From: a virus
Reading direction: 5' to 3' (one strand)
IMG/VR virus record: IMGVR_UViG_3300033273_000550
Span: 124,001 to 188,000 of that record
DNA length: 64,000 nucleotides
Part shown: piece by piece, positions 39,475 through 60,760 of the stretch
How positions within the stretch are numbered: position 1 is the first letter of the stretch
How the letters are laid out: each line of letters starts with the position of its first letter
Notes under the pieces: generated by a model
Database searches by the model: none
The model's input: the letters and a program-made list of their open reading frames with translations, nothing else
What the model was told of the DNA's origin: nothing
Made by a program: the position numbers and the translations under genes

Positions 39475-39667
39475 AATAAAAGGACTAGGAGACGTACTAT
39501 TTATAATAACAAAGTATACCGGAATCAGGTGGATCGTAAAAAAGATCTGGGGTGAAGATTGCGGATGCGATGAACGGCAAGATTTTCTTAATGAAAAGTT
39601 TAATTTTACTAAAGAAGATCTAGAAGCTGATTTATTAAAAAAACCAAAACCTACACCAAAGTTATGA
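39467..39667 (+). CDS. Small conserved phage protein with CGC motif
   Basis: This 66-residue protein starts at ATG 39467 inside the end of nrdA (an upstream GTG is also possible). GLGDVLFIITKYTGIRWIVK leads to GEDCGCDERQDFLNEKF. The C-G-C with nearby acids and the phrase C-x-x-R-x-x-x-L-N is common in small phage proteins of unknown role, which may bind a metal. The C-terminus is Lys/Pro-rich. It overlaps the next start by four bases. Confidence 0.6.
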   Translation: MDKIKGLGDVLFIITKYTGIRWIVKKIWGEDCGCDERQDFLNEKFNFTKEDLEADLLKKPKPTPKL

Positions 39668-40938
39668 CAAAGAAAAAAGGTTCTATTTTTATACAAATTG
39701 CAAGTTATAGAGATCCAGAATTAAGAAATACTCTAGCTTCACTTTTAGATAATGCTGATAACCCAGATAGGTTAAAAATATGTATTGCATGGCAGCATGC
39801 TAAGGCAGATGAGTGGGATACATTAGATGAGTATTTTGATGATAAGAGATTTAAGATAATTGATATAGATTATAGAGACTCAAAAGGAGCATGCTGGGCT
39901 AGAAACTTAATTCAACAAGAATACAACAATGAAGATTACACTCTTCAATTAGATTCTCATCATAGATTTACTAAAGGCTGGGATACAACGTTAATTGATA
40001 TGTTAACAGACCTTCAGAAGAAAGGTCATAAAAAACCTCTTTTAACAGCTTATATTCCTTCGTTCAATCCTGAAAATGATCCTGAAGGTAGAGTACAAGT
40101 TCCATGGAAAATGAACTTTGATAGGTTTACACCAGAAGGAGTAGTCTTTTTCTTACCTGCTGCTATTGATGATTGGCAGGAAAGAGATGAACCAGTGCCA
40201 GCTAGATTCTTCTCTGCTCACTTTACCTTTACCTTAGGTATTTTTGCTAAAGAAGTACAGCACGATCCTCAATTTTATTTCCATGGGGAAGAAATATCAT
40301 TAGCAGTTAGAGCATTTACTCACGGTTACGATTTATTTCACCCTCATAGAGTTATTGCATGGCATGAATATACTAGAAAAGGTAGAACAAAACAGTGGGA
40401 TGATGACCCAATATGGGCGGATAGAAATAGATTAACATTTCATAGACTAAAAGGTCTATTAGGCACTGATGGAACTACGTGTTCACCGTGTATGAGGAAA
40501 AGATTAGAACCATATTATCTAGGAGAAGAAAGAACCTTAGAAGATTATGAGAGATATGCTGGAATTAGGTTTAAAGATAGAGGTATTCAAGAATGGACTA
40601 CAGATAATAAATACCCACCTAATCCTGAGGTAGATGATTATGATAACTCTTTTAATTCCCTATTCAGACACTGTATAGACATACATTTAGACTCGGTCTC
40701 TGAAGATGATTATGAATTTTGGGCTGTTGCGTTCCAGGATAAGGATGGAAACGACTTATATAGAAAAGATGCTGATGCCCAAGAAATTAAAGGATTGATT
40801 AATCATGCGAAAAATAATGATAATTGGATAAATCTATGGAGAGAATATACAGGTCCAGTGCCTGCAAGTTGGGTAGTATGGCCATATTCTAAGTCTAAAG
40901 AATGGTGTAATAGGTTAACCGGTAAATTAGGAGTATAA
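39664..40938 (+). CDS. Glycosyltransferase, GlcNAc-transferase (GT60-like)
   Basis: The protein has 424 residues. FIQIASYRDPELRNTLASLL at the N-terminus and YTLQLDSHHRFTKGWD (the D-x-H/D metal site, around residue 100) are the marks of the GlcNAc-transferase family PF11397. The C-terminal ~90 residues (EDDYEFWAVAFQDKDGNDLY then GPVPASWVVWPYSKS) are a separate beta-rich domain. It would add GlcNAc or a similar sugar to a protein or glycan. It is the first of five glycan-type genes in this stretch. Confidence 0.8.
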   Translation: MTKKKGSIFIQIASYRDPELRNTLASLLDNADNPDRLKICIAWQHAKADEWDTLDEYFDDKRFKIIDIDYRDSKGACWARNLIQQEYNNEDYTLQLDSHHRFTKGWDTTLIDMLTDLQKKGHKKPLLTAYIPSFNPENDPEGRVQVPWKMNFDRFTPEGVVFFLPAAIDDWQERDEPVPARFFSAHFTFTLGIFAKEVQHDPQFYFHGEEISLAVRAFTHGYDLFHPHRVIAWHEYTRKGRTKQWDDDPIWADRNRLTFHRLKGLLGTDGTTCSPCMRKRLEPYYLGEERTLEDYERYAGIRFKDRGIQEWTTDNKYPPNPEVDDYDNSFNSLFRHCIDIHLDSVSEDDYEFWAVAFQDKDGNDLYRKDADAQEIKGLINHAKNNDNWINLWREYTGPVPASWVVWPYSKSKEWCNRLTGKLGV

Positions 40939-42719: not shown

Positions 42720-43340
42720 ATGGGACATTTTAGAGGACATACATCTTATTATAGTGAAATTCTCAAAGGTAATTTTACTGCCCAACAGAGAGATTACGCA
42801 TTTGATGTTTTAGGTGAATTATTTGAAGATAAAAGACCTTCACAGGTTTTAGAAATCGGGACTTCCTTTGGGGGTACAACACAATTTATTAGAGAAAAAC
42901 TTAACAGTATAGAATTAGGAAATTCTGTAGTTAGATCATACGATGTTAACGAACAGAAATGGTATAATCAACAGAGAGAAACAGGAATAGATATTAGAGT
43001 GGAAAATGTTTTTTCACATTCGTATAAAGAGCTTTCAAAACCTCAAGATGTAGAAGAGTTCATAACTAGAGAAGGGACTACTATAGTTCTATGTGATGGT
43101 GGTAGTAAAGTAAATGAATTTAGATTACTTGCTCCTTTTTTAAAGACAGGAGATATTATTATGGCTCATGATTATATTGATACAAGAGAAAATTTTATAG
43201 AAAATTATTTTGACAAAATTTGGAATTGGAGAGAGATAGGTATTGAGGATATTCAAGATGTATGTGATACTTATAATTTAGTTCCTTATATGCAAGAAAA
43301 ATTTAACGAAGCAGTTTGGGCATGCAGAATAAAAACATAA
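42720..43340 (+). CDS. Class I SAM-dependent methyltransferase-like protein
   Basis: The protein has 206 residues. VLEIGTSFGGTTQFI is the motif I loop (E-x-G-x-x-x-G) that binds SAM. VVRSYDVNEQ is the acidic strand after it, and TIVLCDGGSK and GDIIMAHDYI fill the next strands. The pattern is that of cephalosporin-hydroxylase/rhamnosyl-O-methyltransferase types. It may methylate a sugar made by its neighbours. Its end overlaps the next gene by 19 bases. Confidence 0.68.
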   Translation: MGHFRGHTSYYSEILKGNFTAQQRDYAFDVLGELFEDKRPSQVLEIGTSFGGTTQFIREKLNSIELGNSVVRSYDVNEQKWYNQQRETGIDIRVENVFSHSYKELSKPQDVEEFITREGTTIVLCDGGSKVNEFRLLAPFLKTGDIIMAHDYIDTRENFIENYFDKIWNWREIGIEDIQDVCDTYNLVPYMQEKFNEAVWACRIKT

Positions 43341-44989
43341 CAATAGTAACTGGATTATGGGACCTTGGTAGAGGTGATTTAGAAGGATGGTCAAAAAGAT
43401 CTTTTGAGACCTACAAAACTCACTTTTTTAAGTTACTTGAAACCGATGCTCAATTTTGTATCTTTATTCCAAAAGAACTTGAAGAAGAAGTTCGAGAAAT
43501 AAGAGGAGATAAACCCACAGCAATTTATATCAAAGAACTTAAAGATATAGAAACTTGGAATCCTTTTTTTAATGAGATACAAAAGATAAGAGAAGACGAA
43601 AAATGGAGCACATCGGTAGGATGGCTAACCGATTCTCCCCAGGCAAAATTAAAGTACTATAATGCTTTAATGATGTGTAAGATGTTTATGGTGAATGATG
43701 CCTCTGTTTATAATCCTTTTAAATCTGAATACTTTTATTGGATAGATGGTGGACTTACTTCTACTGTAAATCCTGGTTACTTTATAAATGATAAAGTTTT
43801 AGATAACTTAGAAAATTACTCAAGAAGTATAGAGAAGTTTACCTTCTTACAATACCCTTATGAAGGAAACACTGAAGTACATGGATTTGAAAGGAAAAAA
43901 TTAGCTCAATTTTGTGATACTGAATATGTAAATAAGATCTCAAGAGGAGGTTTTTTTGGGGGTCATAAAGAAATATTAAGCCAATTAAATGGACATTATT
44001 ATAATTTTTTATCTAGCACTTTAACCCAAGGTTATATGGGTGCTGATGAATGTTTATTCACTATCTTATCGTACAGGTATCCAGAACTGATTCATAATTT
44101 TGCTTTAGAAGGTAACGGTTTAGTTTTTCCTTTTTTTGAAAACTTAAAACAGTACGATAAAGTTCGTAATGATTTACAGAAAGACACTGTTCTATATGTA
44201 ATCACTTATAATTCACCAAAGCAGTTTGAAACTATTATAGAGTCTTTTAAACAATACGACCCAGATCTGTTAAAATTAACGGATAAGGTCTTATTAGATA
44301 ATTCTATGGACCCTACAACTTTTGATAGATATAAAGAACTATGTGAAGAATACGATTTTAAACATATCAAGAAAGATAATATAGGTATATGCGGAGGAAG
44401 ACAGTTTATTGCTGAACATTTTGATAAGGAAACTAACGGAAAGCAGTACTTATTTTTTGAAGATGATATGTTTTTCTATAACGGTAAAGAAACTACTTGT
44501 AGAAACGGTTTTAACCGAAAGGTAAAAAATATACTAAATAAATCTATTCAAATATTAAACAGAGAAAATTTTGATTTTCTAAAGTATAATTTTTCGGAAT
44601 TTTACGGTGAGCACTCAAAACAATGGGCTTGGTATAATGTACCTCAAAATTTAAGAGATAAGTTCTGGCCTGATTACAACAAACTACCAGAAAGAGGTTT
44701 AGATCCTCACTCTCCGTTTTTAGAGTTTAGTAATATAAAAATTTATAAAAGAATACCTTATATTACCGGTGAGATTTACTACTCTAACTGGCCTCAGCTA
44801 GTATCTAGAGCAGGAAATAGAAAAATGTTTCTAGAAACTAAATGGGATAGACCGTTTGAACAGACATGGATGAGTCATTTTTTCCAGCTTACAAAAGAAA
44901 AAAAACTCAAACCCGGATTATTATTAATTACCCCTACAGAACATGATAGATTTGATTTTTATCCTGCTGAAGAAAGAAGAGAGAATTAG
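43322..44989 (+). CDS. Two-domain protein: HtrL/YibB-like plus GT2-like
   Basis: The protein has 555 residues. The N-terminal ~280 match HtrL/YibB: TIVTGLWDLGRGD, CIFIPKELEEEV, YYNALMMCKMFMVNDAS, then FYWIDGGLTSTV. The C-terminal ~270 look like a GT-A glycosyltransferase: VLYVITYNSPKQFETIIESF, KKDNIGICGGRQFIAEH and YLFFEDDMFFYNG (D-D-x metal site). I chose ATG 43322; an in-frame TTG six bases earlier is less likely. The fusion is unusual and the two halves probably act on one glycan. Confidence 0.68.
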   Translation: MQNKNITIVTGLWDLGRGDLEGWSKRSFETYKTHFFKLLETDAQFCIFIPKELEEEVREIRGDKPTAIYIKELKDIETWNPFFNEIQKIREDEKWSTSVGWLTDSPQAKLKYYNALMMCKMFMVNDASVYNPFKSEYFYWIDGGLTSTVNPGYFINDKVLDNLENYSRSIEKFTFLQYPYEGNTEVHGFERKKLAQFCDTEYVNKISRGGFFGGHKEILSQLNGHYYNFLSSTLTQGYMGADECLFTILSYRYPELIHNFALEGNGLVFPFFENLKQYDKVRNDLQKDTVLYVITYNSPKQFETIIESFKQYDPDLLKLTDKVLLDNSMDPTTFDRYKELCEEYDFKHIKKDNIGICGGRQFIAEHFDKETNGKQYLFFEDDMFFYNGKETTCRNGFNRKVKNILNKSIQILNRENFDFLKYNFSEFYGEHSKQWAWYNVPQNLRDKFWPDYNKLPERGLDPHSPFLEFSNIKIYKRIPYITGEIYYSNWPQLVSRAGNRKMFLETKWDRPFEQTWMSHFFQLTKEKKLKPGLLLITPTEHDRFDFYPAEERREN

Positions 44990-48114: not shown

Positions 48115-48307
48115 AAGACACATAGCAAAAACAATTTCCTGGAGAATTCTAGGTACGTTAGATACTTTTATATTATCTTGGGTACTGACAGGGAATGTAA
48201 AGATAGGTGCTGCAATCGGCGGTGCTGAAGTTTTAACAAAAACTATATTATATTTTGTTCATGAAAGAGCATGGTATAAGTTTTCAAAATTTGGTTTAGA
48301 TAAATGA
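48101..48307 (+). CDS. DUF2061 membrane protein
   Basis: This 68-residue protein has two hydrophobic segments. HIAKTISWRILGTLDTFILS and IGAAIGGAEVLTKTILYFVH, with a closing HERAWYKF, match the DUF2061 family. The role is not established. In my recollection, members often lie near sulfate-activation genes in Flavobacteriia, which would fit the APS kinase-like gene five genes upstream. It overlaps the preceding gene by 14 bases and the carbamoyltransferase gene by four. Confidence 0.78.
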   Translation: MVSYKRHIAKTISWRILGTLDTFILSWVLTGNVKIGAAIGGAEVLTKTILYFVHERAWYKFSKFGLDK

Positions 48308-49983
48308 TCCAATTAGGAATATCAGCTTTTTACCATGATTCTGCTGCCTGTTTAGTAGTAGACGGAAAAGTATTATTAGGTGCTGAAGAAGAGAGATTCA
48401 CAGAAATTAAACATGATCATAGCTTTCCTGTTAATGCTATCTTATATGTACTAAGAGAATCAGGAATCCAAGATATCAATCAAATTGATGAGATTTGTTG
48501 GTACGAAATTCCGGAAGTTAAAAAAAATAGAGTTCTTAAAACTTTTAATAAGAACTTTTTTAAAACATTTAAAAATAGATTAAGATTTTTAAGAGACTAT
48601 CATTTTAAAAGCCCAGCTAAATTATTAAAGAAGCATTTTAACTACACTGGTGACATAACATATGTAGATCATCACTTATCACATGCCGGTTTTTCATACT
48701 ATACCAGCAAATATGAAAACGCTGCTATCTTATCTGTGGATGGAGTAGGAGAGTGGGAGACTGTTTCTATTTACCATGCAAAAGGTGAAGAATTATGGCA
48801 GAAGCATAGTTTTGTTTTTCCTAACTCTCTTGGGATGTTATACTCTACTGTTACTTCATTTTTAGGGTTTAAACCTAACGAAGGAGAATACAAAGTTATG
48901 GGATTAGCACCATTCGGTGACCCAGAAAAATACTACGGTAAATTATCTAAAATTTTTACTCAAGAGTATCTAGAAATAGACCAAAAATACTTTACATGGG
49001 AATATTCTGATAGAATAATGTTTAATATGGAATTTTGTAAGCTTCTAGGATTGGCACCAAGGTTTAGTGAAGAGCCGATTGAACAAGAACATAAAGATTT
49101 AGCAGCTGCATTACAAAAAATATATGAAAGAGAGTTTGAAAAATTAGTTATTCTTGCTAAGAATTATACCTCGACAGATAATATATGTTTAAGCGGAGGT
49201 TGTGCGTATAATGGTGTAGCAAATAAATTAGCCTACAAACATTTTAAATCAGTACACATACCTTACGCACCATCTGATGCTGGATCTGCTATAGGTGCTT
49301 GTTTAGTTAGTAGAGCAGGTAAGAAAGAATCCTTTAATGTTACTCCATATTTAGGACCAAGAGTAAAAGATAGTGACTTTTTACCTATATTAAGTGATTA
49401 TAAGGATAAATTAAGCTGGCAAGAGCTTAAGTTTACTGAGCTTACAGCTCAAGTAGCTAAACTATTAGATGAACAGAATATAGTAGCTTGGGTGCAAGGT
49501 AGGATGGAGTTCGGCGCAAGAGCGTTGGGTAACCGCTCTATATTAGCTTCTCCAAAAAATGCTTCGATGAGAGATAAGTTAAATAGGGTAATTAAAAAAC
49601 GAGAAGGCTTTAGACCATTTGCTCCTTCTGTTACTCTAGAAACAGCATTTAAACATTTTAATATAGAAGAGCCTGTACCTTATATGAATATAGTAGTTAC
49701 AGCTAAGGATGATGACGGGTTTGCAAGATTTACTCGATTTCCTGCTGCTACTCATATCGACGGTACCTGCAGAGTTCAAACAGTAACACCAGAAATGAAT
49801 AGTAGATACCATCAACTGTTAAAGGCAGTTGGAAGACAGACCGGTGATGAAGTATTATTAAATACCTCATTTAATCTTAAAGATCAGACTATAACGGTCT
49901 CTGGTGAACAAGCAATCAAAAGATATTTAGATTCAGACATTGATTATTTGGTTATCAATAATTATTTAATTTCAAAGAGATGA
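48304..49983 (+). CDS. Carbamoyltransferase, NodU/TobZ/CmcH family
   Basis: The protein has 559 residues. The N-terminus (LGISAFYHDSAACLVVDGKV, LLGAEEERFTEIKHD) and later YVDHHLSHAGFSYY and AILSVDGVGEWET form the Kae1-like ATP/carbamoyl-AMP domain. CLSGGCAYNGVANKLAY, GRMEFGARALGNRSILA and REGFRPFAPSV mark the C-terminal domain that binds carbamoyl phosphate. It should carbamoylate a hydroxyl on a sugar or nucleoside. The acceptor is unknown. A 39-residue gene and an SGNH gene follow. Confidence 0.87.
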   Translation: MIQLGISAFYHDSAACLVVDGKVLLGAEEERFTEIKHDHSFPVNAILYVLRESGIQDINQIDEICWYEIPEVKKNRVLKTFNKNFFKTFKNRLRFLRDYHFKSPAKLLKKHFNYTGDITYVDHHLSHAGFSYYTSKYENAAILSVDGVGEWETVSIYHAKGEELWQKHSFVFPNSLGMLYSTVTSFLGFKPNEGEYKVMGLAPFGDPEKYYGKLSKIFTQEYLEIDQKYFTWEYSDRIMFNMEFCKLLGLAPRFSEEPIEQEHKDLAAALQKIYEREFEKLVILAKNYTSTDNICLSGGCAYNGVANKLAYKHFKSVHIPYAPSDAGSAIGACLVSRAGKKESFNVTPYLGPRVKDSDFLPILSDYKDKLSWQELKFTELTAQVAKLLDEQNIVAWVQGRMEFGARALGNRSILASPKNASMRDKLNRVIKKREGFRPFAPSVTLETAFKHFNIEEPVPYMNIVVTAKDDDGFARFTRFPAATHIDGTCRVQTVTPEMNSRYHQLLKAVGRQTGDEVLLNTSFNLKDQTITVSGEQAIKRYLDSDIDYLVINNYLISKR

Positions 49984-50818: not shown

Positions 50819-51286
50819 ATGGGAAAATTTCAATCAACAAAAGTATTCGATGGCTTTTCGACGGTATTCCGTCAATGGAAAGCAGAAACTACCCACTGTA
50901 AATATGTACATGGGTATGGAGTTTCATTTAAATTATGGTTTGAAGGTGATTTAGATGAAAGAAACTGGGTATGGGACTTCGGCGGAATGAAAAGAGCTAA
51001 AGGAAAAATAGATGGTATGACTCCAAAAGAATGGATGGATTACATGTTCGATCATACCTTTGTAGTAGCAGAAGATGATCCGTATCTTCAATCATTTGTT
51101 AAAATGGATGAAGCAGGAGTAGCTCAAGTAAGAGTAGTACCTGCAACAGGAGCAGAAAGATTTGCTAAATTTATTTACGATAAAGTTAATCCTTTTATTG
51201 AAGAAGAAACAGAAGGTAGAGTAAAAATAGCAAGAGTAGAATTTAGAGAACATGGTAAAAACTCAGCAATATATGAGCCTAGGTAG
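50819..51286 (+). CDS. queD: 6-carboxytetrahydropterin synthase (QueD), FRQW/HGYG subfamily
   Basis: The protein has 155 residues. WVWDFGGMKRAKG and MFDHTFVVAEDDPYL are the QueD strand and the D-H catalytic pair. THCKYVHGYGVSFKLWF carries the active-site Cys and the first of two zinc His. The standard A-A-H is replaced by VFRQW and the second His of H-G-H by Tyr. This pattern is typical of a marine bacterial/phage QueD group. It turns dihydroneopterin triphosphate into 6-carboxytetrahydropterin. It overlaps queE. Confidence 0.8.
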   Translation: MGKFQSTKVFDGFSTVFRQWKAETTHCKYVHGYGVSFKLWFEGDLDERNWVWDFGGMKRAKGKIDGMTPKEWMDYMFDHTFVVAEDDPYLQSFVKMDEAGVAQVRVVPATGAERFAKFIYDKVNPFIEEETEGRVKIARVEFREHGKNSAIYEPR

Positions 51287-52049
51287 AATAGAAGATTATA
51301 ATAAAACTTTACCTATAGTAGAGCTCTATACTGCTGTACAATCAGAAGGATCTAGACAAGGATTTCCTACTATAGTAATACGTACTACAGGTTGTACGCA
51401 TAGATGTTATTTCGGAGAAGGTGGATGGTGTGATTCTTGGTATACTTCTATACATCCCGAAAAAGGAAAATATAACTTCCAGGATATCATAGATATGTAT
51501 AATAGTCATCCGCATATTAGTGAAATGATGTTGACAGGAGGTTCGCCTACTATGCATAAAAAATTAGTTAATGAATTAACACATTTTGCTAATGAGAGAG
51601 ATATTTTCATTACTATTGAAACTGAAGGAAGTCACTTTCTCCCCACAGACTATCCTATTAACCTTTTATCTATTAGTCCTAAGTTTTCTAATTCTATTCC
51701 AGTTATAGGTGTGGAAACTCCAGAAGGTAAGATAACTGATGATAAGATGATTAAACAGCATAATAAATTTAGAGTAAATGTTGAAGCAATTAAAGAAAGC
51801 ATTAATTATCATTCCGATTACCATATTAAACCGGTTCTTGATAAAGAGCTGTCGATGGTGCCAGAAGTAGAAGAGTTTATTAATAAATTAGAAATTCCTA
51901 AAGAAAAAATATGGGCAATGCCTGCAGGTGATGATAGAGTTTCACTTTTTGAGAGTTATCCGGTAGTAATGAACTTCGTTAGAGATAAAGGATGGAGATT
52001 TACCGGTAGGGCTCATATTATGGCGTTTGATACCGAAAGAGAAGTATGA
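51273..52049 (+). CDS. queE: 7-carboxy-7-deazaguanine synthase, radical SAM (QueE)
   Basis: The protein has 258 residues from ATG 51273; an ATG at 51252 is also possible. VELYTAVQSEGSRQGFPTIV is the typical QueE start. TTGCTHRCYFGEGGWCDSWY is the cluster loop; its cysteines are spaced CX3CX7C instead of the usual CX3CX2C, a five-residue insertion before the C-D. MMLTGGSPTMH is the G-G-E/S-P motif. It makes 7-carboxy-7-deazaguanine from the QueD product. A ferredoxin gene follows with a four-base overlap. Confidence 0.85.
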   Translation: MSLGRIEDYNKTLPIVELYTAVQSEGSRQGFPTIVIRTTGCTHRCYFGEGGWCDSWYTSIHPEKGKYNFQDIIDMYNSHPHISEMMLTGGSPTMHKKLVNELTHFANERDIFITIETEGSHFLPTDYPINLLSISPKFSNSIPVIGVETPEGKITDDKMIKQHNKFRVNVEAIKESINYHSDYHIKPVLDKELSMVPEVEEFINKLEIPKEKIWAMPAGDDRVSLFESYPVVMNFVRDKGWRFTGRAHIMAFDTEREV

Positions 52050-52300
52050 GTTATATCATAGGATCTAAATGTATAGGAACAAAAGATGGTGCTTGTATAG
52101 CTGTTTGCCCAGTAGATTGTATAGAGGAAGGAGAGGATAGCATGTATATCGACCCTGAAACTTGCATTGACTGTGGTGCTTGTGTGCCAGAATGCCCAGT
52201 TGAAGCTATCTTCGATTCTGAAGAAGATGCAATAGCAGCCGGTGAACTAGAGGCTGTAAAAAATAACTATAAATTTTACAATTTAAAATATGAAAACTAA
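52046..52300 (+). CDS. Ferredoxin, 2[4Fe-4S]-type
   Basis: The protein has 84 residues. The two cluster motifs are CIGTKDGACIAVCPVDCI and CIDCGACVPECPVEAI. The first has a wide loop between its first two cysteines, typical of 7Fe/8Fe bacterial ferredoxins. The C-terminus has a short helix (DAIAAGELEAVKNN). The close overlap with queE suggests it is its electron donor, since radical SAM enzymes need a reduced cluster. Confidence 0.88.
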   Translation: MSYIIGSKCIGTKDGACIAVCPVDCIEEGEDSMYIDPETCIDCGACVPECPVEAIFDSEEDAIAAGELEAVKNNYKFYNLKYEN

Positions 52301-52898
52301 AAATTTTATTTTATTACTTAGTTTAGTTTTACTAAGCTGTACTAAAACACAACCAATCGTAGCTCAAGATTTAAGAGAAAGAGTTGAATTTGATATAGAC
52401 GGATTATTTTCTGGAGTTTATTCTGAAGTGTTAGAGCAACCATTAGAGGTTACCTATATAGTTCCTTGTCCGGATGGAGATGCTTCAAGAAGTGGATTAG
52501 ATTTTTACGAAGATGATAATATTCATACATCAGATGATGATGATTATAGTAATAACGTTTGGGATAAAGGACATTTAGCTCCTGCTGCAGCATTTGCTTG
52601 TGATAGAGAAACAATTAAAAAAACTTTTACTTATTTAAACTCAGCCTTACAGCATCAATCACTAAATAGAGGAGCTTGGAATCGATTAGAATCGGTCGAA
52701 AGAGGAATGGCTATCTGGCATGAAGTAGAAGTAAGAATAGAAGTAATATTTGATGAAAATAGTCAAGTACTTCCATCCGGCGCTACAGTTCCCAAAGCTT
52801 TTAGAAAAACTATAAAAGCTGGAGATATCACAAAAGTATTTTATTTCCCTAATATAGATACATCAGGTACTGATTGGGAAGATTATTTAGTTAATTAA
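52290..52898 (+). CDS. DNA/RNA non-specific endonuclease, lipoprotein
   Basis: The protein has 202 residues. KTKNFILLLSLVLLSCTK is a lipoprotein signal with the lipid Cys at residue 17. WDKGHLAPAAAF is the D-R-G-H active site with Lys in place of Arg. TYLNSALQHQSLNRGAWNRL has the conserved Asn and W of the NUC family (Serratia nuclease type). It should cleave DNA and RNA outside the cytoplasm, anchored to the inner or outer membrane. The gene directly precedes the TonB-dependent receptor region. Confidence 0.82.
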   Translation: MKTKNFILLLSLVLLSCTKTQPIVAQDLRERVEFDIDGLFSGVYSEVLEQPLEVTYIVPCPDGDASRSGLDFYEDDNIHTSDDDDYSNNVWDKGHLAPAAAFACDRETIKKTFTYLNSALQHQSLNRGAWNRLESVERGMAIWHEVEVRIEVIFDENSQVLPSGATVPKAFRKTIKAGDITKVFYFPNIDTSGTDWEDYLVN

Positions 52899-52899
52899 T

Positions 52900-53079
52900 A
52901 TGAGCGATAAAGAATTCGTACAATGGTTTAGAGGGTTCGTAGAAGGAGCTCATCACTATAATATCACCCCTAAACAGTGGGATGATTTAAAAGATAAGTT
53001 GTCATTAGTAAAGAAGGAAGGTCCATCATCTTTTGCCTATCAATTGGACAAATCTTGGGTTACTGATATAGCTTATTAG
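52900..53079 (+). CDS. Small conserved phage protein (59 residues)
   Basis: The frame from ATG 52900 runs 59 codons to TAG 53077. It has FVQWFRGFVEGAHHYNITPK and QWDDLKDKLSLVKK, a pattern common in small proteins of many phages (R-G-F-V-E-G, then I/L-T-P-K-Q-W-D-x-L-K). It is followed by the TBDR promoter region. It shows no signal peptide, so it is cytoplasmic. Confidence 0.68.
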   Translation: MSDKEFVQWFRGFVEGAHHYNITPKQWDDLKDKLSLVKKEGPSSFAYQLDKSWVTDIAY

Positions 53080-53090
53080 GTTATATTTTG
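53078..53090 (+). promoter_or_regulatory. Possible promoter -10 element before TonB-dependent receptor
   Basis: AGGTTATATTTTG lies 20 bases before the receptor ATG. It matches AGGTTATATTGT of the promoters at 30503 and 50772. The matching -35 is poor (TTGG 23 bases upstream), so this is less certain than the others. Confidence 0.4.
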
Positions 53091-53110
53091 TTTAATTTAA
53101 ATTTTAATTA

Positions 53111-55621
53111 ATGAGAAATCTCGTTACAATGCTGTTAACATTCTTAACAGTAGGAGCTTACGCTCAACAAGTAGCTGTTAAGGATACAGTCCTGACACAG
53201 CAGCTAGAAGAGGTAGTAGTCTCATCAAGGGTAATTGACGTTGCAAAAGAACGAATTACACCTGTTGCAGTATCTACTATTTCCGCTAGTGACATTTCTT
53301 TAAAAACAGGAAACTTAGAGTTCCCTGAAATTATGAACAACACCCCAGGTGTTTACGCTACTAAGCAAGGAGGAGGATATGGGGATTCTCGTATCTCACT
53401 TCGAGGTTTTGATCAGCGTAATACATCTTTCTTAATTAACGGTCAACCCGTTAATGACATGGAAAACGGGTGGGTGTACTGGTCTAACTGGCAAGGATTA
53501 ACGGACGTTGCTTCCGGAATCCAAATCCAAAGAGGACTTGGTGCATCAAGACTGGCTGTCCCTTCTGTGGGTGGTACAGTATCTATCTTCACTAAAAGTG
53601 CGGATAAAAGACAAGGCGGTTCATTTACCCAAGTAGTAGGTAACGACGGGTATACTAAAACGACTGCTGCTTACAACACTGGATTAAATGAAAATGGATG
53701 GGCTACATCTGTTTTATTAAGTAAGTGGGCTGGAGATGGCTATATTTACAACACCAGTGGTGAAGGTTGGACTTACTTCTTTGCATTAGGATATGCACCA
53801 GAAGATTCTGATCATGCTATTAACTTTTCTTTATTAGGTGCAGGACAATGGCACCACCAAAGAGATGTTTGGGTATCTATTAGAGATTACCAAAACTTTG
53901 GTGAAGAAGGAATTGATAGAAGATGGAACTCAAACGGTGGTATTTTAAACGGAGAAGAATATAGCCTTAGAAGAAACTTCTATAACAAACCATTAGCTAC
54001 AATTAACTGGGATTGGGACATTTCTGATAATGTTCAATTAAATACATCCCTATATGGTTCAGCTGGTAGAGGTGGTGGAACAGGTCCAAGAGGTAGAAAC
54101 TACTACAACTCGGAAACTGATATCTTACCATTTAGAAAAGACCTTACTGAACATTATTTAGAAAATGGTAGAGGTTCAAGATTGGCTAACGGTTTCATCG
54201 ATTTTGATGCAATCGTTCAGTACAATAGAAATAACACTCAAGGATATGATGGAGGAATCTCTGCATATCAAGGAGCTTTAATCGCTTCTAACGGGTACAA
54301 TGATGATAACGTAAATAGAGCTGGTCTAGTAAGAAGAGCTTCTATGAACTCTCATGATTGGGTAGGTGCTATTTCAAACTTAGATATTACTGCTGGTAAG
54401 ATGAGATACTCTATCGGAGTAGATTTAAGAAACTACAAAGGTTACCATTATAGAGTACTAAATGATCTATTAGGATTTGATGCTTATTACTCTACTGGTA
54501 ATAAAAACTCAGAAGGACAGATTATTGAATCACTAGTTGAAGCAAGTCCATTTCAAAACACTGGAATTAGAGGACCTAAAATCGATTACTACAATATCGG
54601 ATATGTAGGTTGGCAAGGTGTTAATGGTTTAGCTGAATACTCAGGAGATGCATTAACTGCTGTAATTCAAGCAGGTCTTTCTAATCAATCATTCCAAAGA
54701 GAAGATTTATTTGATCAACCATCTAACTACCTTTCTGAAAAGAAGAACGTTGGTGGTGGGTATGTTAAAGGTGGCGCAAACTACAACCTAGATGCTAAGT
54801 CTAATGTATTCTTTAACGCAGGGTATATTTCGAGACAGCCTAATTTCGATGCAGTATTCCCTAACTACGCTAATAACGTTAACCCAAATCTACAGAATGA
54901 AGAAATTAAATCTTTAGAACTTGGATACGGATTTATCACAGACAAAGTTAAATTAAACGTAAATATCTACTCTACTAACTGGGGTAATAGATTTGTAACC
55001 AGATCTCTTACTAACCAGCAAGGTGTTGATGGATTTGCTCAATTTAGAGATATCGATGTAACTCACAACGGTGTTGAGATTGAAAGTTCATACAAACCAT
55101 CTAGTAGAACTACATTCAAAGGAATGCTATCAATTGGTGATTGGGAATACGATAATAACTTCGAAGCAGAATTATTTGACGAGAACCAACAATCAATCGG
55201 TACAGGTACTTTATATACTAAAGGAGCTAAAGTAGGGGATGCTGCACAATTTGTAGCTAACTTTGCAGTCGATCAGAGATTCGGCTCTAAACTTAAAGCT
55301 GACCTATCATATAGATTCGTTGACGGATTATATGCTGATTATTCAATTACTGATTCAGCATTTACTTCTCCAGATAACGATGGAGCACTTAAATTACCTT
55401 CTTATGGTCTTGTTGACCTAGGAGCTACTTTCTTTGCAGGAAGAGGGTGGAGTTTAAGAGCTAATGTTAATAACGTATTAGACACAACTTATATTGCTGA
55501 GTCTAATTCAAATATCCATGCAAGTGCAACTTCAACTACATGGAATGGAATTGATGTAAGAAACTCGGTATGGTTCGGATTCGGAAGAACTTGGAACGTA
55601 TCTCTTAAGAAAAGATTCTAA
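53111..55621 (+). CDS. TonB-dependent outer-membrane receptor, full length
   Basis: The protein has 836 residues. Residues 1-18 (RNLVTMLLTFLTVGAYA) are a Sec signal. TonB box QQLEEVVVSS is near 30-39. The plug domain spans ~45-165 with FPEIMNNTPGVYATKQGGG, SRISLRGFDQRN and VPSVGGTVSIF. The rest alternates strands of a 22-stranded barrel and ends with WNVSLKKRF, the terminal Phe needed for outer-membrane insertion. It lacks the N-terminal carboxypeptidase-like domain common in Bacteroidota TBDRs. A phage gene for a whole receptor is rare. It is bounded by a promoter-like box and a strong terminator. Confidence 0.93.
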   Translation: MRNLVTMLLTFLTVGAYAQQVAVKDTVLTQQLEEVVVSSRVIDVAKERITPVAVSTISASDISLKTGNLEFPEIMNNTPGVYATKQGGGYGDSRISLRGFDQRNTSFLINGQPVNDMENGWVYWSNWQGLTDVASGIQIQRGLGASRLAVPSVGGTVSIFTKSADKRQGGSFTQVVGNDGYTKTTAAYNTGLNENGWATSVLLSKWAGDGYIYNTSGEGWTYFFALGYAPEDSDHAINFSLLGAGQWHHQRDVWVSIRDYQNFGEEGIDRRWNSNGGILNGEEYSLRRNFYNKPLATINWDWDISDNVQLNTSLYGSAGRGGGTGPRGRNYYNSETDILPFRKDLTEHYLENGRGSRLANGFIDFDAIVQYNRNNTQGYDGGISAYQGALIASNGYNDDNVNRAGLVRRASMNSHDWVGAISNLDITAGKMRYSIGVDLRNYKGYHYRVLNDLLGFDAYYSTGNKNSEGQIIESLVEASPFQNTGIRGPKIDYYNIGYVGWQGVNGLAEYSGDALTAVIQAGLSNQSFQREDLFDQPSNYLSEKKNVGGGYVKGGANYNLDAKSNVFFNAGYISRQPNFDAVFPNYANNVNPNLQNEEIKSLELGYGFITDKVKLNVNIYSTNWGNRFVTRSLTNQQGVDGFAQFRDIDVTHNGVEIESSYKPSSRTTFKGMLSIGDWEYDNNFEAELFDENQQSIGTGTLYTKGAKVGDAAQFVANFAVDQRFGSKLKADLSYRFVDGLYADYSITDSAFTSPDNDGALKLPSYGLVDLGATFFAGRGWSLRANVNNVLDTTYIAESNSNIHASATSTTWNGIDVRNSVWFGFGRTWNVSLKKRF

Positions 55622-55638
55622 CATTAAAAATAATTAAG

Positions 55639-55666
55639 GGGAGCCCTTGCGGCTCCCTTTTTTTTT
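55639..55666 (+). terminator. Rho-independent terminator after TonB-dependent receptor gene
   Basis: GGGAGCC and GGCTCCC pair around the loop CTTGC, followed by nine T. The loop contains the TTGC used as -35 in the next promoter. Confidence 0.88.
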
Positions 55667-55674
55667 CATATATT
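55647..55674 (+). promoter_or_regulatory. Promoter overlapping terminator (TTGC-N18-TATATT)
   Basis: TTGC (55647-55650) sits in the terminator loop. After 18 bases (the stem and T run) comes TATATT (55669-55674), and the ATG of the next gene follows five bases later. Stop and start of two units are therefore packed in ~40 bases. The spacing is one base shorter than in the other sites. Confidence 0.5.
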
Positions 55675-55679
55675 ATAGT

Positions 55680-56081
55680 ATGGCAAAAAAGGTTGTATTA
55701 ACGTGGGAGGATATAAACTCTCTATTGGATAAAATTCACAAACAGACACAAGGAAAAATAGATATGGTTACGGGTATACCGAGAGGTGGTACCTTACTGG
55801 CGATAATGTATTCGCATAGGTTTAATGTTGCTTATTTACCTTATATGAGTAACCATTATGAAAGACTTCTAATAATTGATGATATAGCAGATTCAGGAAT
55901 TACATTTACAAAGACTAGTAAAGAGTTTCCTAATTGTAAGTATGCTGCTATTCATTATAAAAATACTTCAACTTTTAAACCTGACTTCTACGGATTAGAA
56001 ATACCAGAAGATTATGGATGGATCGTTTATCCGTGGGAAAAAAAAGATTCCAAACCTATACAGGATTATTTGGATAATTGA
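55680..56081 (+). CDS. Phosphoribosyltransferase-family protein
   Basis: The protein has 133 residues from ATG 55680; an earlier in-frame TTG lies in the terminator and is rejected. TGIPRGGTLLA is the PPi loop and RLLIIDDIADSGITFTKT the PRPP-binding motif (D-D-x-x-D-S-G-x-T). It is smaller than purine phosphoribosyltransferases (~180). It should make a nucleotide from a base and PRPP, or regulate. The substrate is unknown; a deazaguanine salvage role would suit the neighbours but is a guess. Confidence 0.78.
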   Translation: MAKKVVLTWEDINSLLDKIHKQTQGKIDMVTGIPRGGTLLAIMYSHRFNVAYLPYMSNHYERLLIIDDIADSGITFTKTSKEFPNCKYAAIHYKNTSTFKPDFYGLEIPEDYGWIVYPWEKKDSKPIQDYLDN

Positions 56082-56098
56082 GTAAAAAATCATATATT
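56070..56098 (+). promoter_or_regulatory. Host-like promoter TTGG-N19-TATATT (folE)
   Basis: TTGG at 56070-56073, a 19-base spacer and TATATT at 56093-56098, inside and just after the end of the phosphoribosyltransferase gene. The folE ATG at 56117 follows 18 bases later, which supports that start over an upstream TTG. Confidence 0.5.
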
Positions 56099-56116
56099 AT
56101 ATTAAATAAAGTTTAT

Positions 56117-56797
56117 ATGGGTGATAGTGTAAAAAACGAAATTGAAATTGTAAAGACAGGTTTTGCTAATGGTGTAGCACCTGGTTTTCCATTAACTGAA
56201 GATGAGAAATGGAATGTAGTAGAAGAAGCAGCTGAAGCTTATGGTAAGTTTTTAGATGCATTAGGATGTGATTGGAAGAATGATCCTAACTCAGCTGATA
56301 CTCCTAGAAGGGTAGCAAAAGCTTATGTTTTTGATCTTTGGAAAGGTAGATACGATGCTATGAGTGATATTACAGCATTTCCTTCTGATGGATATGACGG
56401 TATAGTACAAGAAAGTAACATACCAGTTACCTCTATGTGTAGTCACCACCACCAGACCATAGCTGGTAGAGTATCGATAGCTTACGTTCCTTCTAAAAAT
56501 GGTAAGGTTGTAGGATTATCTAAGTTAAATAGAATTGTAGAGCATTTTGGTAGAAGAGGAGCTATACAGGAGCAACTTACTGTTGCTATTCATAATGCTA
56601 TCCATGTTATATGTGAAGGTAATTTAGGAGTAGCAGTAATGATAGATGCAACTCATAACTGTGTTAGTTGTAGAGGAGTAAAGCATTCAGGAGCATCAAT
56701 GCAAACAGCTAAACTATCAGGTTGTTTTCTAGAAGAAGATGCTGCTAGAGCAGAGTTTTATAAAAATATTGAACTTTCTAGCAAATGTCGAATCTAG
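56117..56797 (+). CDS. folE: GTP cyclohydrolase I
   Basis: The protein has 226 residues. DTPRRVAKAYVFDLW is the N-terminal helix motif. SMCSHHHQTIAGRVSIAYVP carries zinc Cys and His. VGLSKLNRIVEHFGRR and HNCVSCRGVKHSGASM complete the active site (second zinc Cys). It hydrolyses GTP to dihydroneopterin triphosphate, the first step toward both folate and deazaguanines. In this genome it feeds QueD. It overlaps the next gene by 13 bases. Confidence 0.9.
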   Translation: MGDSVKNEIEIVKTGFANGVAPGFPLTEDEKWNVVEEAAEAYGKFLDALGCDWKNDPNSADTPRRVAKAYVFDLWKGRYDAMSDITAFPSDGYDGIVQESNIPVTSMCSHHHQTIAGRVSIAYVPSKNGKVVGLSKLNRIVEHFGRRGAIQEQLTVAIHNAIHVICEGNLGVAVMIDATHNCVSCRGVKHSGASMQTAKLSGCFLEEDAARAEFYKNIELSSKCRI

Positions 56798-57243
56798 AAC
56801 ACGATATTAGACCTTGGGGGGAGTATCAAGTACTCTATGATGGAGAAGACTGTAAAGTAAAACGTATTACAGTTTTACCCGGTAAAAAACTATCACTTCA
56901 GTATCACTATAAAAGAGATGAACTTTGGCAGATCATCTCAGGTAAAGCAAAGTTAGTTATAGGATCTGAAGATCTTAAGTATGAAGAATTTGAGTTGCTT
57001 CCTCAAGATGATTTCTTTATATTTAGAAAACAACATCACCGTATAGAGAATATAGGTGAAGAAAATTTAGTCTTTATTGAAATACAAACAGGTGACTATT
57101 TCGGTGAAGACGATATAATAAGATTACAAGATGATTTTGGTAGAGTAGACTTTGATCATTTAAAAGATTGGGTTGATATAAAAGAAGAACAAAAAGCCAA
57201 CAAAACTGATTGGTGGAAAAAAATGAGTAAAGATGGCAATTAA
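56785..57243 (+). CDS. Cupin, mannose-6-phosphate isomerase type II-like
   Basis: The protein has 152 residues. RPWGEYQVLYD, LPGKKLSLQYHYKRDELWQI and KQHHRIENIGEENLVFIEIQ, with DYFGEDDIIRLQDDFGR at the end, match the C-terminal cupin of bifunctional GMP/PMI enzymes (ManC). The H-x-H and Glu of the metal site are present. It would isomerise fructose-6-phosphate and mannose-6-phosphate to feed GDP-mannose-type sugars for the glycan clusters. It overlaps folE and the next gene. Confidence 0.8.
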   Translation: MSNLEHDIRPWGEYQVLYDGEDCKVKRITVLPGKKLSLQYHYKRDELWQIISGKAKLVIGSEDLKYEEFELLPQDDFFIFRKQHHRIENIGEENLVFIEIQTGDYFGEDDIIRLQDDFGRVDFDHLKDWVDIKEEQKANKTDWWKKMSKDGN

Positions 57244-57415
57244 ATTAGACGACCATATAGTAGAAATAGAAGGTATTAGGTATATACCTTATGAAGTAGC
57301 AGTAAAAGCAATCTCTGAGATAGGAGAAGATCAGATTAATAGAGCTGATGAACTTCTAAATAAACTAGCTTCTGACTTAAATTTAACATTTAAAAATATA
57401 GATAAGAATGATTAA
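57233..57415 (+). CDS. Small hypothetical protein
   Basis: This 60-residue acidic protein starts inside the end of the cupin gene and overlaps the dpdA-like gene by eight bases. A beta strand (DDHIVEIEGIRYIPYEVA) and a helix (DQINRADELLNKLASDLNL) are evident. It is not recognised. Tight coupling on both sides supports that it is translated. Confidence 0.55.
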   Translation: MAIKLDDHIVEIEGIRYIPYEVAVKAISEIGEDQINRADELLNKLASDLNLTFKNIDKND

Positions 57416-58226
57416 GATAGCTCACGAATCTCCTAAGAGTATATTTGAAGACGTACAAAGATTTACCGATTATGATTATGCGTTAGTTCATTTATTTGAA
57501 GAGGATGAGGAGTATCTTAAAATCTTTGAAAAAGCTGTTAGAAAAGGAAGAGAAGTAATTTTAGATAATTCTATTTTTGAATTAGAAGAAGCTTTTGATG
57601 CAGATAAATTTGCTAAGTGGGTGGATCATTTAAGACCTACCTGGTATATTGTACCGGATGCTTTAGAAGATTCTGTTAAGACATGTAAACAGATGGCTTC
57701 TTGGGATAAGAGGTATTCTGAGTTACCTGGTAAAAAGATAGGAGTAGTTCAAGGTAGAACATATGAGGAAATCGTAAACTGTTACAAGTTTATGGATAAT
57801 TCTGACGTTGATATGATTGCTATTTCCTTCGACTATTCATACTATACTAAATCAGTACCTCATCCTAATAAGTATGTTAGTTGGATGTTAGGTAGAGTTA
57901 AGTTATTAGGAGATCTACTTAAGGATGGAGTAATAAACGTAAATAAGAAGCATCATTTATTAGGATGTGGGTTACCGCAAGAGTTTCAATATTACAAGCA
58001 TGCTGATTATAATTGGTTATACTCTCTTGATACTTCTAATCCTGTAGTTCACGGTATTAAGGGAATTAGTTATGCCGATCAAGGACTATGGTCTAAAGAA
58101 TCTCAAAAACTATTTGAACTGATTAACTCAGATGTAAGTATAGACCAGTTAAGTGTTATTAAAAATAATATTCAAAAATTTAGATGGTTTGCAAATGGAC
58201 AACAAGATGTGGATAGCGTTTTTTAG
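57408..58226 (+). CDS. dpdA: TGT/DpdA-like 7-deazaguanine DNA transglycosylase
   Basis: The protein has 272 residues. EVILDNSIFELEEAF, TWYIVPDALEDSVKTCKQ, KIGVVQGRTYEEIV and DMIAISFDYS follow the barrel of tRNA-guanine transglycosylase relatives: the catalytic D-N-S (D-S-G in TGT), the V-P-D strand and the G-V-V-Q-G loop. A later WLYSLDTSNPVVHGIKG gives the second Asp. The zinc motif of bacterial TGT is absent, as in phage DpdA proteins. It would replace guanines in DNA with a 7-deazaguanine. It overlaps the formyltransferase gene by 32 bases. Confidence 0.75.
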   Translation: MIKIAHESPKSIFEDVQRFTDYDYALVHLFEEDEEYLKIFEKAVRKGREVILDNSIFELEEAFDADKFAKWVDHLRPTWYIVPDALEDSVKTCKQMASWDKRYSELPGKKIGVVQGRTYEEIVNCYKFMDNSDVDMIAISFDYSYYTKSVPHPNKYVSWMLGRVKLLGDLLKDGVINVNKKHHLLGCGLPQEFQYYKHADYNWLYSLDTSNPVVHGIKGISYADQGLWSKESQKLFELINSDVSIDQLSVIKNNIQKFRWFANGQQDVDSVF

Positions 58227-58743
58227 TCAGACAGGATCTGAAATTGCCGATATTGCTGAGTCGTTAGGTAGATGGCCTGATAGAATAGTAACTAACGATA
58301 GACCAGAGCATCTTAGAACTATAGATGCTAGAATAGAAAAACAAGGTTACTTTACTTTCAGCAATAAACCTGATGTAGAAGAGTATGCTGACTTACTTAC
58401 GTACTTTCCGGACGCTATCATAACTCTACATGGTTGGTTAAGAATAATGCCTCCTGAGATTTGTGAAAGACATAGAATATTTAATGGTCATCCAGGATTA
58501 ATAACTGAATACCCAGAACTAAAAGGAAAAGATCCTCAGATAAGAGCTTACGAAGGCATTAAAGCTGGAAAATATCTGACTGCTGGAGCAGTTTTACACC
58601 ACGTAACTGCTGGAGTTGATGAAGGTAAGGTTATTATGGAAGAATATTTTAATGCGCAAGATTTGTCTCTTGATGAATTATTTCGTATATTGAGAGATAG
58701 AAGTTTATATATGTGGTGTAATTTTCTTAAAAAGGTTTTATGA
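58195..58743 (+). CDS. Formyltransferase (PurN-like), candidate base-modifying enzyme
   Basis: The protein has 182 residues from ATG 58195 (alternative ATG 58207). ITLHGWLRIMPPEI, RIFNGHPGLITEYP and TAGAVLHHVTAGVDEGKVI carry the N-G-H-P (catalytic Asn and His) and D-E-G/D motifs of 10-formyl-THF formyltransferases. It differs from PurN in its start and context. It overlaps dpdA by 32 bases and ends on the next start. Such a gene could formylate the aminomethyl group of preQ1 in DNA. A purine role is the alternative. Confidence 0.8.
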   Translation: MDNKMWIAFFSQTGSEIADIAESLGRWPDRIVTNDRPEHLRTIDARIEKQGYFTFSNKPDVEEYADLLTYFPDAIITLHGWLRIMPPEICERHRIFNGHPGLITEYPELKGKDPQIRAYEGIKAGKYLTAGAVLHHVTAGVDEGKVIMEEYFNAQDLSLDELFRILRDRSLYMWCNFLKKVL

Positions 58744-59285
58744 TTACAAGAATAGCATTAGTAGGAGCAAGTAGTACAGGAAAGACTACAGTTTATGAAT
58801 TACTTAAGTCTAAGTTACCTAAGTATGAATTTATTAATGAATCAACCCGTTCTGTCGGTCAATATGGATTTCCTATCAATGAAAACGGAACAGATGCTAC
58901 CCAATTAGCTATCAGTTCTTTTCATTTAGAGGCATTACTTAATCCTTATAATCTTGTATTAGATAGATGTTATATGGATCTAGTAGCATACTCTAGATTT
59001 ATGCCTAATATAAGCAAAGAAACGTTAAATTACATCTTAGATACATGGAAACGTGTTAAAGGCGAGTATACTCATTATGTGTATTTTCCTATTGAATTTG
59101 ATTCTGTAGACGATGGAGTAAGGAGTATCGATGAGCGATGGAGAAAGGATATAGATGATGAGTTTTTTGAAATGCTACAAGATGTGAGACAACCTTATTT
59201 AACTGTGACTGGATCACCGATGCAAAGAGTAGAACAAATTATAGATTTTATAGAAAATGGGAAAACAACTACAGCTATTCTCTGA
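58740..59285 (+). CDS. NadR/AAA-type P-loop ATPase or kinase
   Basis: The protein has 181 residues. RIALVGASSTGKTTVYELL is the Walker A motif. FINESTRSVGQYGFP and LVLDRCYMDLVAYSRF are the usual second strands (D-R in the Walker B region) of the NadR/AAA_28 kinase family. It may phosphorylate a nucleoside or similar small molecule. It starts within the formyltransferase stop and overlaps the MazG-like gene by 29 bases. Confidence 0.73.
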   Translation: MITRIALVGASSTGKTTVYELLKSKLPKYEFINESTRSVGQYGFPINENGTDATQLAISSFHLEALLNPYNLVLDRCYMDLVAYSRFMPNISKETLNYILDTWKRVKGEYTHYVYFPIEFDSVDDGVRSIDERWRKDIDDEFFEMLQDVRQPYLTVTGSPMQRVEQIIDFIENGKTTTAIL

Positions 59286-59838
59286 TCAAGAGATTGGACC
59301 TTGCAGCAATCATGCTAATGAATACGTTCCGTTTGTATCGGAAGTAGAAGAGTTTAATACTACATTTGGTAAACCTAATAATTATGAACCAACCATCCCT
59401 GAAGAAAAAGAATGGAAATTCGTATACGACTTTATACTCGAGGAACTTGAGGAGTATAGAGAAGCGTGCGAAAGAGGAGACATCGTGGAAGTTTTGGATG
59501 CTTTGTGCGACATTGCTTATGTTTCCATTGGGAACGGTACTATGCTACATGGCCTTAAAGATAAGATATGGCCAGCATATCTCGAAGTACAAGCGTCTAA
59601 TTTATCGAAGGCTTGCACATCTGAAGAAGAAGCAATTGAAACCGTCAGCGTACGAGCTAAGGAACAAGGTGAGGAGTGTCATTATGAAAAGGTAGGAAAA
59701 GTTTTTGTAGTATATAGAACTAGAGATAGAAAAGTAATGAAATCAGTTAATTATTTTAGACCTGATTTGACTAAGTTTTTTCAAGAGGAGGAAATAGATA
59801 AATGTAGACCTAATTTTGATCCCGGTACAATAATTTAA
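59257..59838 (+). CDS. MazG-like nucleotide pyrophosphohydrolase (PRA-PH fold)
   Basis: The protein has 193 residues. FILEELEEYREACERGDIVE and VLDALCDIAYVSIGNGTM hold the E-E-x-x-E and D-x-x-D metal motifs of the all-alpha NTP pyrophosphatase superfamily. The N-terminal 50 residues are variable, and the C-terminal half (YEKVGKVFVVYRTRDRKVMK) is an extension. It may clean modified or alarmone nucleotides or hydrolyse dNTPs to monophosphates. In phages such enzymes often accompany base-modification pathways. Confidence 0.75.
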   Translation: MGKQLQLFSDQEIGPCSNHANEYVPFVSEVEEFNTTFGKPNNYEPTIPEEKEWKFVYDFILEELEEYREACERGDIVEVLDALCDIAYVSIGNGTMLHGLKDKIWPAYLEVQASNLSKACTSEEEAIETVSVRAKEQGEECHYEKVGKVFVVYRTRDRKVMKSVNYFRPDLTKFFQEEEIDKCRPNFDPGTII

Positions 59839-59848
59839 ATATAATAAT

Positions 59849-60760
59849 ATGTCAGAAGTTAAAAATTATCAAGAAGTAGTAGATATTGCATCTAAGCATT
59901 TAGGTAAAGTAGGAGGCGATGGATACTCAGATCAATATAATAGAGATTTATTGGTTAAGGTACCTAGGTTCTTAAATAGAGAAGGTTACGGATTAACATC
60001 AGATAGTTTTGTTGGTGTTGATGTTTGGAATGCTTATGAAGTATCTGCTATTACTGTAAAAGGTCAACCAGTAGCCGGTATGTTAAAGATAGTATGTCCA
60101 GCTGATTCCGAATTTCATGTTGAATCTAAATCGATTAAGTTATATTTAAACTCTTTTAATATGACTCAAATTGGTGAAACTGCTGCCGATTGTATTAAAG
60201 CAATCGAAGCTACTGTAAAAAGAGATTTAGATGAGTTACTAGAAACTGAGACAACTGTATCTTTTTATGCAAGTAGTGAAGAGGCGGAAGTTCTATCTTT
60301 CGAAGATTATCAGGATGTAGCAGATGTAGTAGATTTAGATCAAATAGACTTTACTTCTTTTAAATCAGATGCTTCTCAATTGAAGATTGAGGATACTGAT
60401 GAGGAAGCTAAGGTAGTAAAATTAAGATCTAATCTTCTTAGATCAAATTGTAGAGTTACTAACCAACCGGATTGGGGAGATGTATTTATTAAACTTAAAG
60501 GTAAACATCTTCCAGCAGCAGACTCCTTAGCTAAGTATATTGTTAGTCATAGAACCGTTAGTCACTTTCATGAAGAGATATGCGAAATGGTTTTTAAACA
60601 TATTTCTGATGCATATGAACCTGAAGAGCTGATGGTAGCTTGTCTATATACTAGGAGAGGAGGTATAGATATTAATCCTGTAAGAGCAACTCATAGTAGT
60701 TTAATACCTGAATTCTTTACTAACCCTGATTATTTAATTCAGAAGACTCTAAGACAGTAA
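59849..60760 (+). CDS. queF: NADPH-dependent preQ0 reductase
   Basis: The protein has 303 residues. HVESKSIKLYLNSF is the E-x-K-S-x-K-x-Y motif that defines QueF within the tunnelling fold. LRSNCRVTNQPDWGDVFI supplies the catalytic Cys and P-D-W-G. SHFHEEICEMVFKHI the general base His. ACLYTRRGGIDINPVRA is the QueF C-terminal motif. It reduces the nitrile of preQ0 to the aminomethyl of preQ1. With QueC, QueD, QueE and FolE here the whole GTP-to-preQ1 route is present. The size agrees with the bimodular QueF group. Confidence 0.9.
   Translation: MSEVKNYQEVVDIASKHLGKVGGDGYSDQYNRDLLVKVPRFLNREGYGLTSDSFVGVDVWNAYEVSAITVKGQPVAGMLKIVCPADSEFHVESKSIKLYLNSFNMTQIGETAADCIKAIEATVKRDLDELLETETTVSFYASSEEAEVLSFEDYQDVADVVDLDQIDFTSFKSDASQLKIEDTDEEAKVVKLRSNLLRSNCRVTNQPDWGDVFIKLKGKHLPAADSLAKYIVSHRTVSHFHEEICEMVFKHISDAYEPEELMVACLYTRRGGIDINPVRATHSSLIPEFFTNPDYLIQKTLRQ

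Follow-up and report, generated by a model that had tools for sequence, protein, structure and literature searches.

A TonB-dependent receptor family recurrently captured by large marine phages of Bacteroidota and its possible part in nucleic-acid-derived nutrient uptake

Phages are known mostly for binding TonB-dependent receptors (TBDRs) of their hosts. Host-derived genes that stand between phage genes with their own regulatory signals are called morons, the classical examples being prophage genes. In the open-licence PMC literature, we found a single paper mentioning TBDRs of phages (PMC9723777) and no description of a phage TBDR family or of its coupling to nucleases. PMC9723777 describes a single SusC-like TBDR, in megaphage Mar_Mega_1 and in LR745206, with a proposed boost of nutrient uptake in infection. 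On the bacterial side, phosphate limitation induces TBDTs of Flavobacterium together with extracellular nucleases, and a role of these TBDTs in organic-phosphorus import has been proposed (PMC8115612); marine Bacteroidota stand out in the degradation of extracellular DNA (PMC8289736).

Here, we analysed a stretch of 64,000 nucleotides (the window) that is part of a 191,416-bp IMG/VR record (IMGVR_UViG_3300033273_000550) and encodes a tail sheath, a DnaB helicase and a ribonucleotide reductase (RNR). The features at and around its TBDR gene are as follows.

50819-52049, + strand: QueD-like and QueE-like genes belonging to a 7-deazaguanine cluster
52290-52898, + strand: DNA/RNA non-specific (NS) endonuclease (PF01223) with the lipoprotein-type signal VLLSC and the motifs DKGHLAPA and N..Q..N..W..E
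53081-53095, + strand: upstream element TTATATTTTGTTTAA, 16 bp before the TBDR start
53111-55621, + strand: TBDR of 836 aa with signal peptide, TonB box, plug (residues ~48-160) and 22-strand barrel
55636-55666, + strand: strong intrinsic terminator, a 10-bp stem and T-run directly 3' of the TBDR stop
55680-56081, + strand: phosphoribosyltransferase-like protein (PF00156), the first gene past the terminator, start re-assigned to ATG
56078-56797, + strand: GTP cyclohydrolase I (FolE), with which the deazaguanine cluster resumes on the downstream side

An intact receptor gene between phage genes

The initial annotation described a full-length TBDR without an obvious break in a phage genome, and this is borne out. 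The reading frame translates from ATG to stop into 836 aa with no internal stop, and the Plug (E 7e-12) and TonB_dep_Rec barrel (E 8e-13) domains both exceed the Pfam gathering cut-offs. By inspection, the N-terminus carries the signal peptide MRNLVTMLLTFLTVGAYAQ, followed by a TonB-box-like LEEVVVSS at residues ~32-39, and the last residue is Phe, giving the C-terminal aromatic. The AlphaFold2 model (pLDDT 81, pTM 0.80) comprises a plug and a barrel, its 22 strands being counted by a hand reading of the strand pattern. Judged by these features, the receptor looks functional. An N-terminal carboxypeptidase-regulatory-like extension is variably present in TBDR copies of phages and cells (L043, L064, L070, L098, L104), and the window copy is without it.

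An assembly chimera at 53.1 or 55.6 kb, considered in the same annotation, is excluded in practice, because a contig from another metagenome (L010) keeps the genes on both sides of the TBDR. It has the order of the window, i.e., QueD, QueE, a small protein, the NS endonuclease, the TBDR, the phosphoribosyltransferase and FolE, with identities of 79-94% for QueD, QueE, endonuclease, TBDR and FolE, 66% for the small protein and 37% for the phosphoribosyltransferase. A further locus, L019, has the upstream side in common with the window.

Several observations concern the phage itself. The 7-deazaguanine cluster extends over 50819-60760 (QueD, QueE, FolE and a QueF-like gene), with the nuclease-TBDR pair inserted inside it, and is accompanied by a NodU-like carbamoyltransferase at 48304-49983; cluster and carbamoyltransferase likely serve DNA modification. 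Glycosyltransferase-like genes at 39664-40938 and 43316-44989 (phrog_24687; weak match to the T4-type HMC glucosyltransferase family) perhaps serve DNA or surface modification. The phage also appears to encode its own chaperonin, with genes at contig positions 754-2695 (L002) that were judged GroES- and GroEL-like by eye from homologous sequences and have homologues in many related loci.

The gene had also been credited with its own promoter-like box and terminator; the terminator stands, and the box is now better described as a conserved, distinctive upstream element for which a promoter role is proposed. In the pieces of the contig that were searched, TTATATTTTGTTTAA matches once (0.18 matches expected per window), and its variants occur 5' of several phage orthologues and at 0 of 77 cellular loci, the form common to the window and several relatives being GGTTATAT..TGTTTAA-like. 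It may be the TBDR promoter; a general phage promoter can be dismissed, since the motif occurs just once in the pieces searched. The host-type promoter box TAnnTTTG precedes 46 of 77 cellular copies vs 9 of 75 viral ones. An intrinsic terminator immediately follows 65 of 74 phage copies (88%) vs 4% of 823 other phage genes, and it also follows 94% of the cellular orthologues. The TBDR seems to take its terminator along when it moves and to leave the host promoter behind. Given the terminator at 55636-55666, the next gene probably starts past it at ATG 55680 rather than at TTG 55647.

Recurrence, exchange with hosts and selection

The expectation that phages rarely carry such a receptor does not hold for this family, as close relatives of the window TBDR are encoded by 453 viral contigs, the best 80 of which have 67-84% identity. 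The flanks of most of these 80 loci contain homologues of the window phage's genes and those of the 80 best cellular control loci almost none, by which an origin as host fragments in IMG/VR is rejected for most loci. GenBank phages gave distant matches only, two of them full-length at ~33% and the rest partial. Host genomes encode 13-18 TBDRs each, and one family of these has been captured repeatedly by related phages. Viral-contig scans with three other host TBDR families found no viral relatives, a result that is suggestive only, as all three are less conserved and two of the scans rested on just two peptide patterns. In sheath-bearing contigs, the TBDR was absent, these contigs being too short for an estimate of prevalence. 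A contig of a Crocinitomicaceae MAG (L100) and a phage (L035) encode an identical TBDR protein; mis-binning of a phage may explain the MAG contig.

In the FastTree phylogeny, phage and cellular TBDRs are interleaved, and well-supported branches force at least ten phage/cell changes in a set in which 18 loci are ambiguous between phage and host-fragment origin. The gene has therefore moved many times between hosts and phages, and a single acquisition by phages is ruled out. The ancestry in Bacteroidota suggested earlier from base composition and motifs is supported. A copy from Balneolota (L093) clusters with the phage copies L045 and L052, which suggests that phages may be a route by which outer-membrane receptors move between bacterial lineages.

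Premature stop codons in related genomes had been named as a finding that would refute the annotation; the related genes are intact, and the phage copies are under purifying selection, with pairwise dN/dS of 0.06-0.21 (17 pairs) and values of 0.025-0.12 among cellular copies. With loop limits assigned by hand from the secondary structure of the model, extracellular loops and strands change at about the same rate, the loop/strand ratio being lower in phages (0.83-1.04) than in cells (0.98-1.36). Arms-race variation of the surface is thus not supported, and the gene is retained for what the TBDR does rather than for surface variety.

Neighbouring nucleases and the imported substrate

In 22 of the 80 viral loci, a predicted secreted S1/P1 nuclease (PF02265, E 9e-60), which has an N-terminal signal, is encoded 42-1703 bp downstream of the TBDR and nowhere else in the locus, and an NS endonuclease predicted to be a lipoprotein lies 40-320 bp upstream in seven of the 80 as well as in the window. 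When the S1/P1 protein was scanned for separately, 16 of 19 viral loci had this TBDR in the same locus, and one of the other three was cut by the contig end. IMP dehydrogenase (IMPDH) is directly upstream of the TBDR in 16 loci and RNR in 14, and a thymidylate-kinase-like P-loop gene is near it in 47 (downstream in 46). Altogether, a nuclease, IMPDH or RNR adjoins the TBDR in 41 of the 80 loci, and 39 have none of these. Since large phages commonly encode nucleotide genes, the evidence from their proximity is weak. A small hydrophobic protein (~72-89 aa, no Pfam family; L031:12585-12830) has homologues in 34 viral loci, often beside the TBDR and S1/P1.

S1/P1 genes are present in 13 of 14 host genomes and linked to the TBDR in Ca. 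Arcticimaribacter only; the pairing in phages is therefore not merely inherited synteny. All phage S1/P1 proteins but one fall in a single clade, to which the Ca. Arcticimaribacter protein is sister. Being of one clade, the phage linkages are not independent events, and as the host genes are mostly unlinked, the pair is an arrangement of phages (and Arcticimaribacter) that was kept through swaps of TBDR alleles. Most bacterial TBDR orthologues stand next to pgi or recA, with no nuclease in the operon; EEP nucleases (PF19580) near some pgi-linked host copies lie on the opposite strand and were not counted as operon evidence.

Our preferred reading, held about evenly for and against, is that the recurrently captured TBDR belongs to a moron-like cassette that sustains the uptake of nucleic-acid-derived nutrients during infection. 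A compact cassette of upstream element, TBDR and terminator was captured many times from marine Bacteroidota and, in the infected cell, would most likely supplement the outer membrane with further copies of one conserved TBDR. Exported nucleases, the NS-family lipoprotein here and S1/P1 elsewhere, would cut DNA or RNA extracellularly or in the periplasm. With energy from host TonB, the TBDR would take in the products as oligonucleotides, nucleotides or nucleosides, hence also phosphate, and these could supply phage DNA synthesis via salvage and RNR enzymes that the phage itself encodes. What we infer here is that the nucleases are exported and active, as well as the function and substrate of the TBDR. 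The wider proposal that large marine Bacteroidota phages encode nucleic-acid foraging, in which an exported nuclease, a dedicated TBDR and nucleotide enzymes feed outside DNA or RNA to phage replication, is advanced tentatively, as plausible rather than probable. Of the functions first suggested for the gene, nutrient import is thus retained and narrowed to nucleic-acid-derived nutrients; iron or vitamin scavenging and a change of the surface are less favoured, because exported nucleases and nucleotide-metabolism genes adjoin the TBDR and because its extracellular loops are undiversified in phages.

We consider it somewhat unlikely that the TBDR imports another scarce nutrient, such as an iron complex, a vitamin, a PQQ-like cofactor, a peptide or a glycan, with the nearby nucleases as separate accessory genes. 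The top Foldseek matches of the model in the PDB are FhuA, PqqU, Fiu and FecA, and the structural neighbours are siderophore, PQQ and copper receptors. The weak NCBIfam matches, to receptors for siderophores and B12, all stay far under the cut-off, and most host orthologues have no nuclease partner. However, phage S1/P1 genes occur almost only beside this TBDR family, and no iron or vitamin gene is found among its annotated neighbours. The nearest solved structures (FhuA, PqqU, FecA) single out no nucleotide ligand, and a PDB sequence search returned nothing useful. Since about half of the loci are without nuclease or nucleotide neighbours and most host orthologues lie outside nuclease operons, there is room for another substrate, and the nuclease could serve another purpose.

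An altered phage-host interface, in which the TBDR restores or replaces a surface receptor, serves as a decoy for one or takes part in superinfection exclusion with a periplasmic nuclease, is improbable in our view. TBDRs are classic phage receptors, FhuA-pb5 is among the Foldseek matches, alleles were repeatedly exchanged with hosts, and an exported nuclease could destroy incoming DNA; yet neither an intact TonB box nor a plug is needed for such a role, and the conserved loops, opposite to an arms race, make superinfection exclusion less likely. That the TBDR is a mere passenger, from random capture of host DNA with no selected role or from mis-binned or chimeric contigs, is very hard to credit and already contradicted by synteny in independent contigs, purifying selection, recurrent capture of one family only and the terminator linkage, even though IMG/VR holds some host fragments and the G+C content of the gene is somewhat higher than that of its flanks (37% vs 30-34%).

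Comparison with described systems

The closest phage precedent, the TBDR of Mar_Mega_1/LR745206, is likewise annotated as a full TBDR in a large marine phage. It differs in that the LR745206 protein matches the window TBDR over residues 12-228 only (35% identity) and in that PMC9723777 gives a single annotation, the text examined showing neither a recurrent family nor a pairing with nucleases nor a host tree. The viral structure library contains one full-length TBDR only, A0A8D9FQQ5 of an uncultured marine phage, which shares 12% identity with the window TBDR. Host-derived, intact, under selection and standing between phage genes, the window TBDR resembles an auxiliary metabolic gene or moron; it differs from classical morons in that its carriers are large phages, in which an unsystematic look identified no integration gene.

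What our data add is one TBDR family that was repeatedly captured by phages and apparently kept working, with predicted exported nucleases alongside in many genomes. If uptake of nucleic-acid products is the true role, infected cells would forage outside for nucleotides, which would offer a new angle on phage nutrition and on phosphorus cycling in the ocean, and what a highly conserved, orphan TBDR of flavobacteria imports could be put to the test. The chromosomal orthologue of Flavobacteriaceae, often beside pgi, is up to 77% identical to the window TBDR over the full length and has the same terminator habit; it differs in its more frequent host-type promoter box and, except in Ca. Arcticimaribacter, in having no S1/P1 neighbour. 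The phosphate-inducible TBDT/PusCD systems of Flavobacterium (PMC8115612) are bacterial and SusD-coupled or of other TBDR families, whereas the window TBDR is phage-borne with no SusD-like gene among the ten proteins scanned around it with Pfam, immediate neighbours included. What they share with the nuclease-TBDR pairing described here is the closeness of TBDRs to enzymes degrading organic phosphorus.
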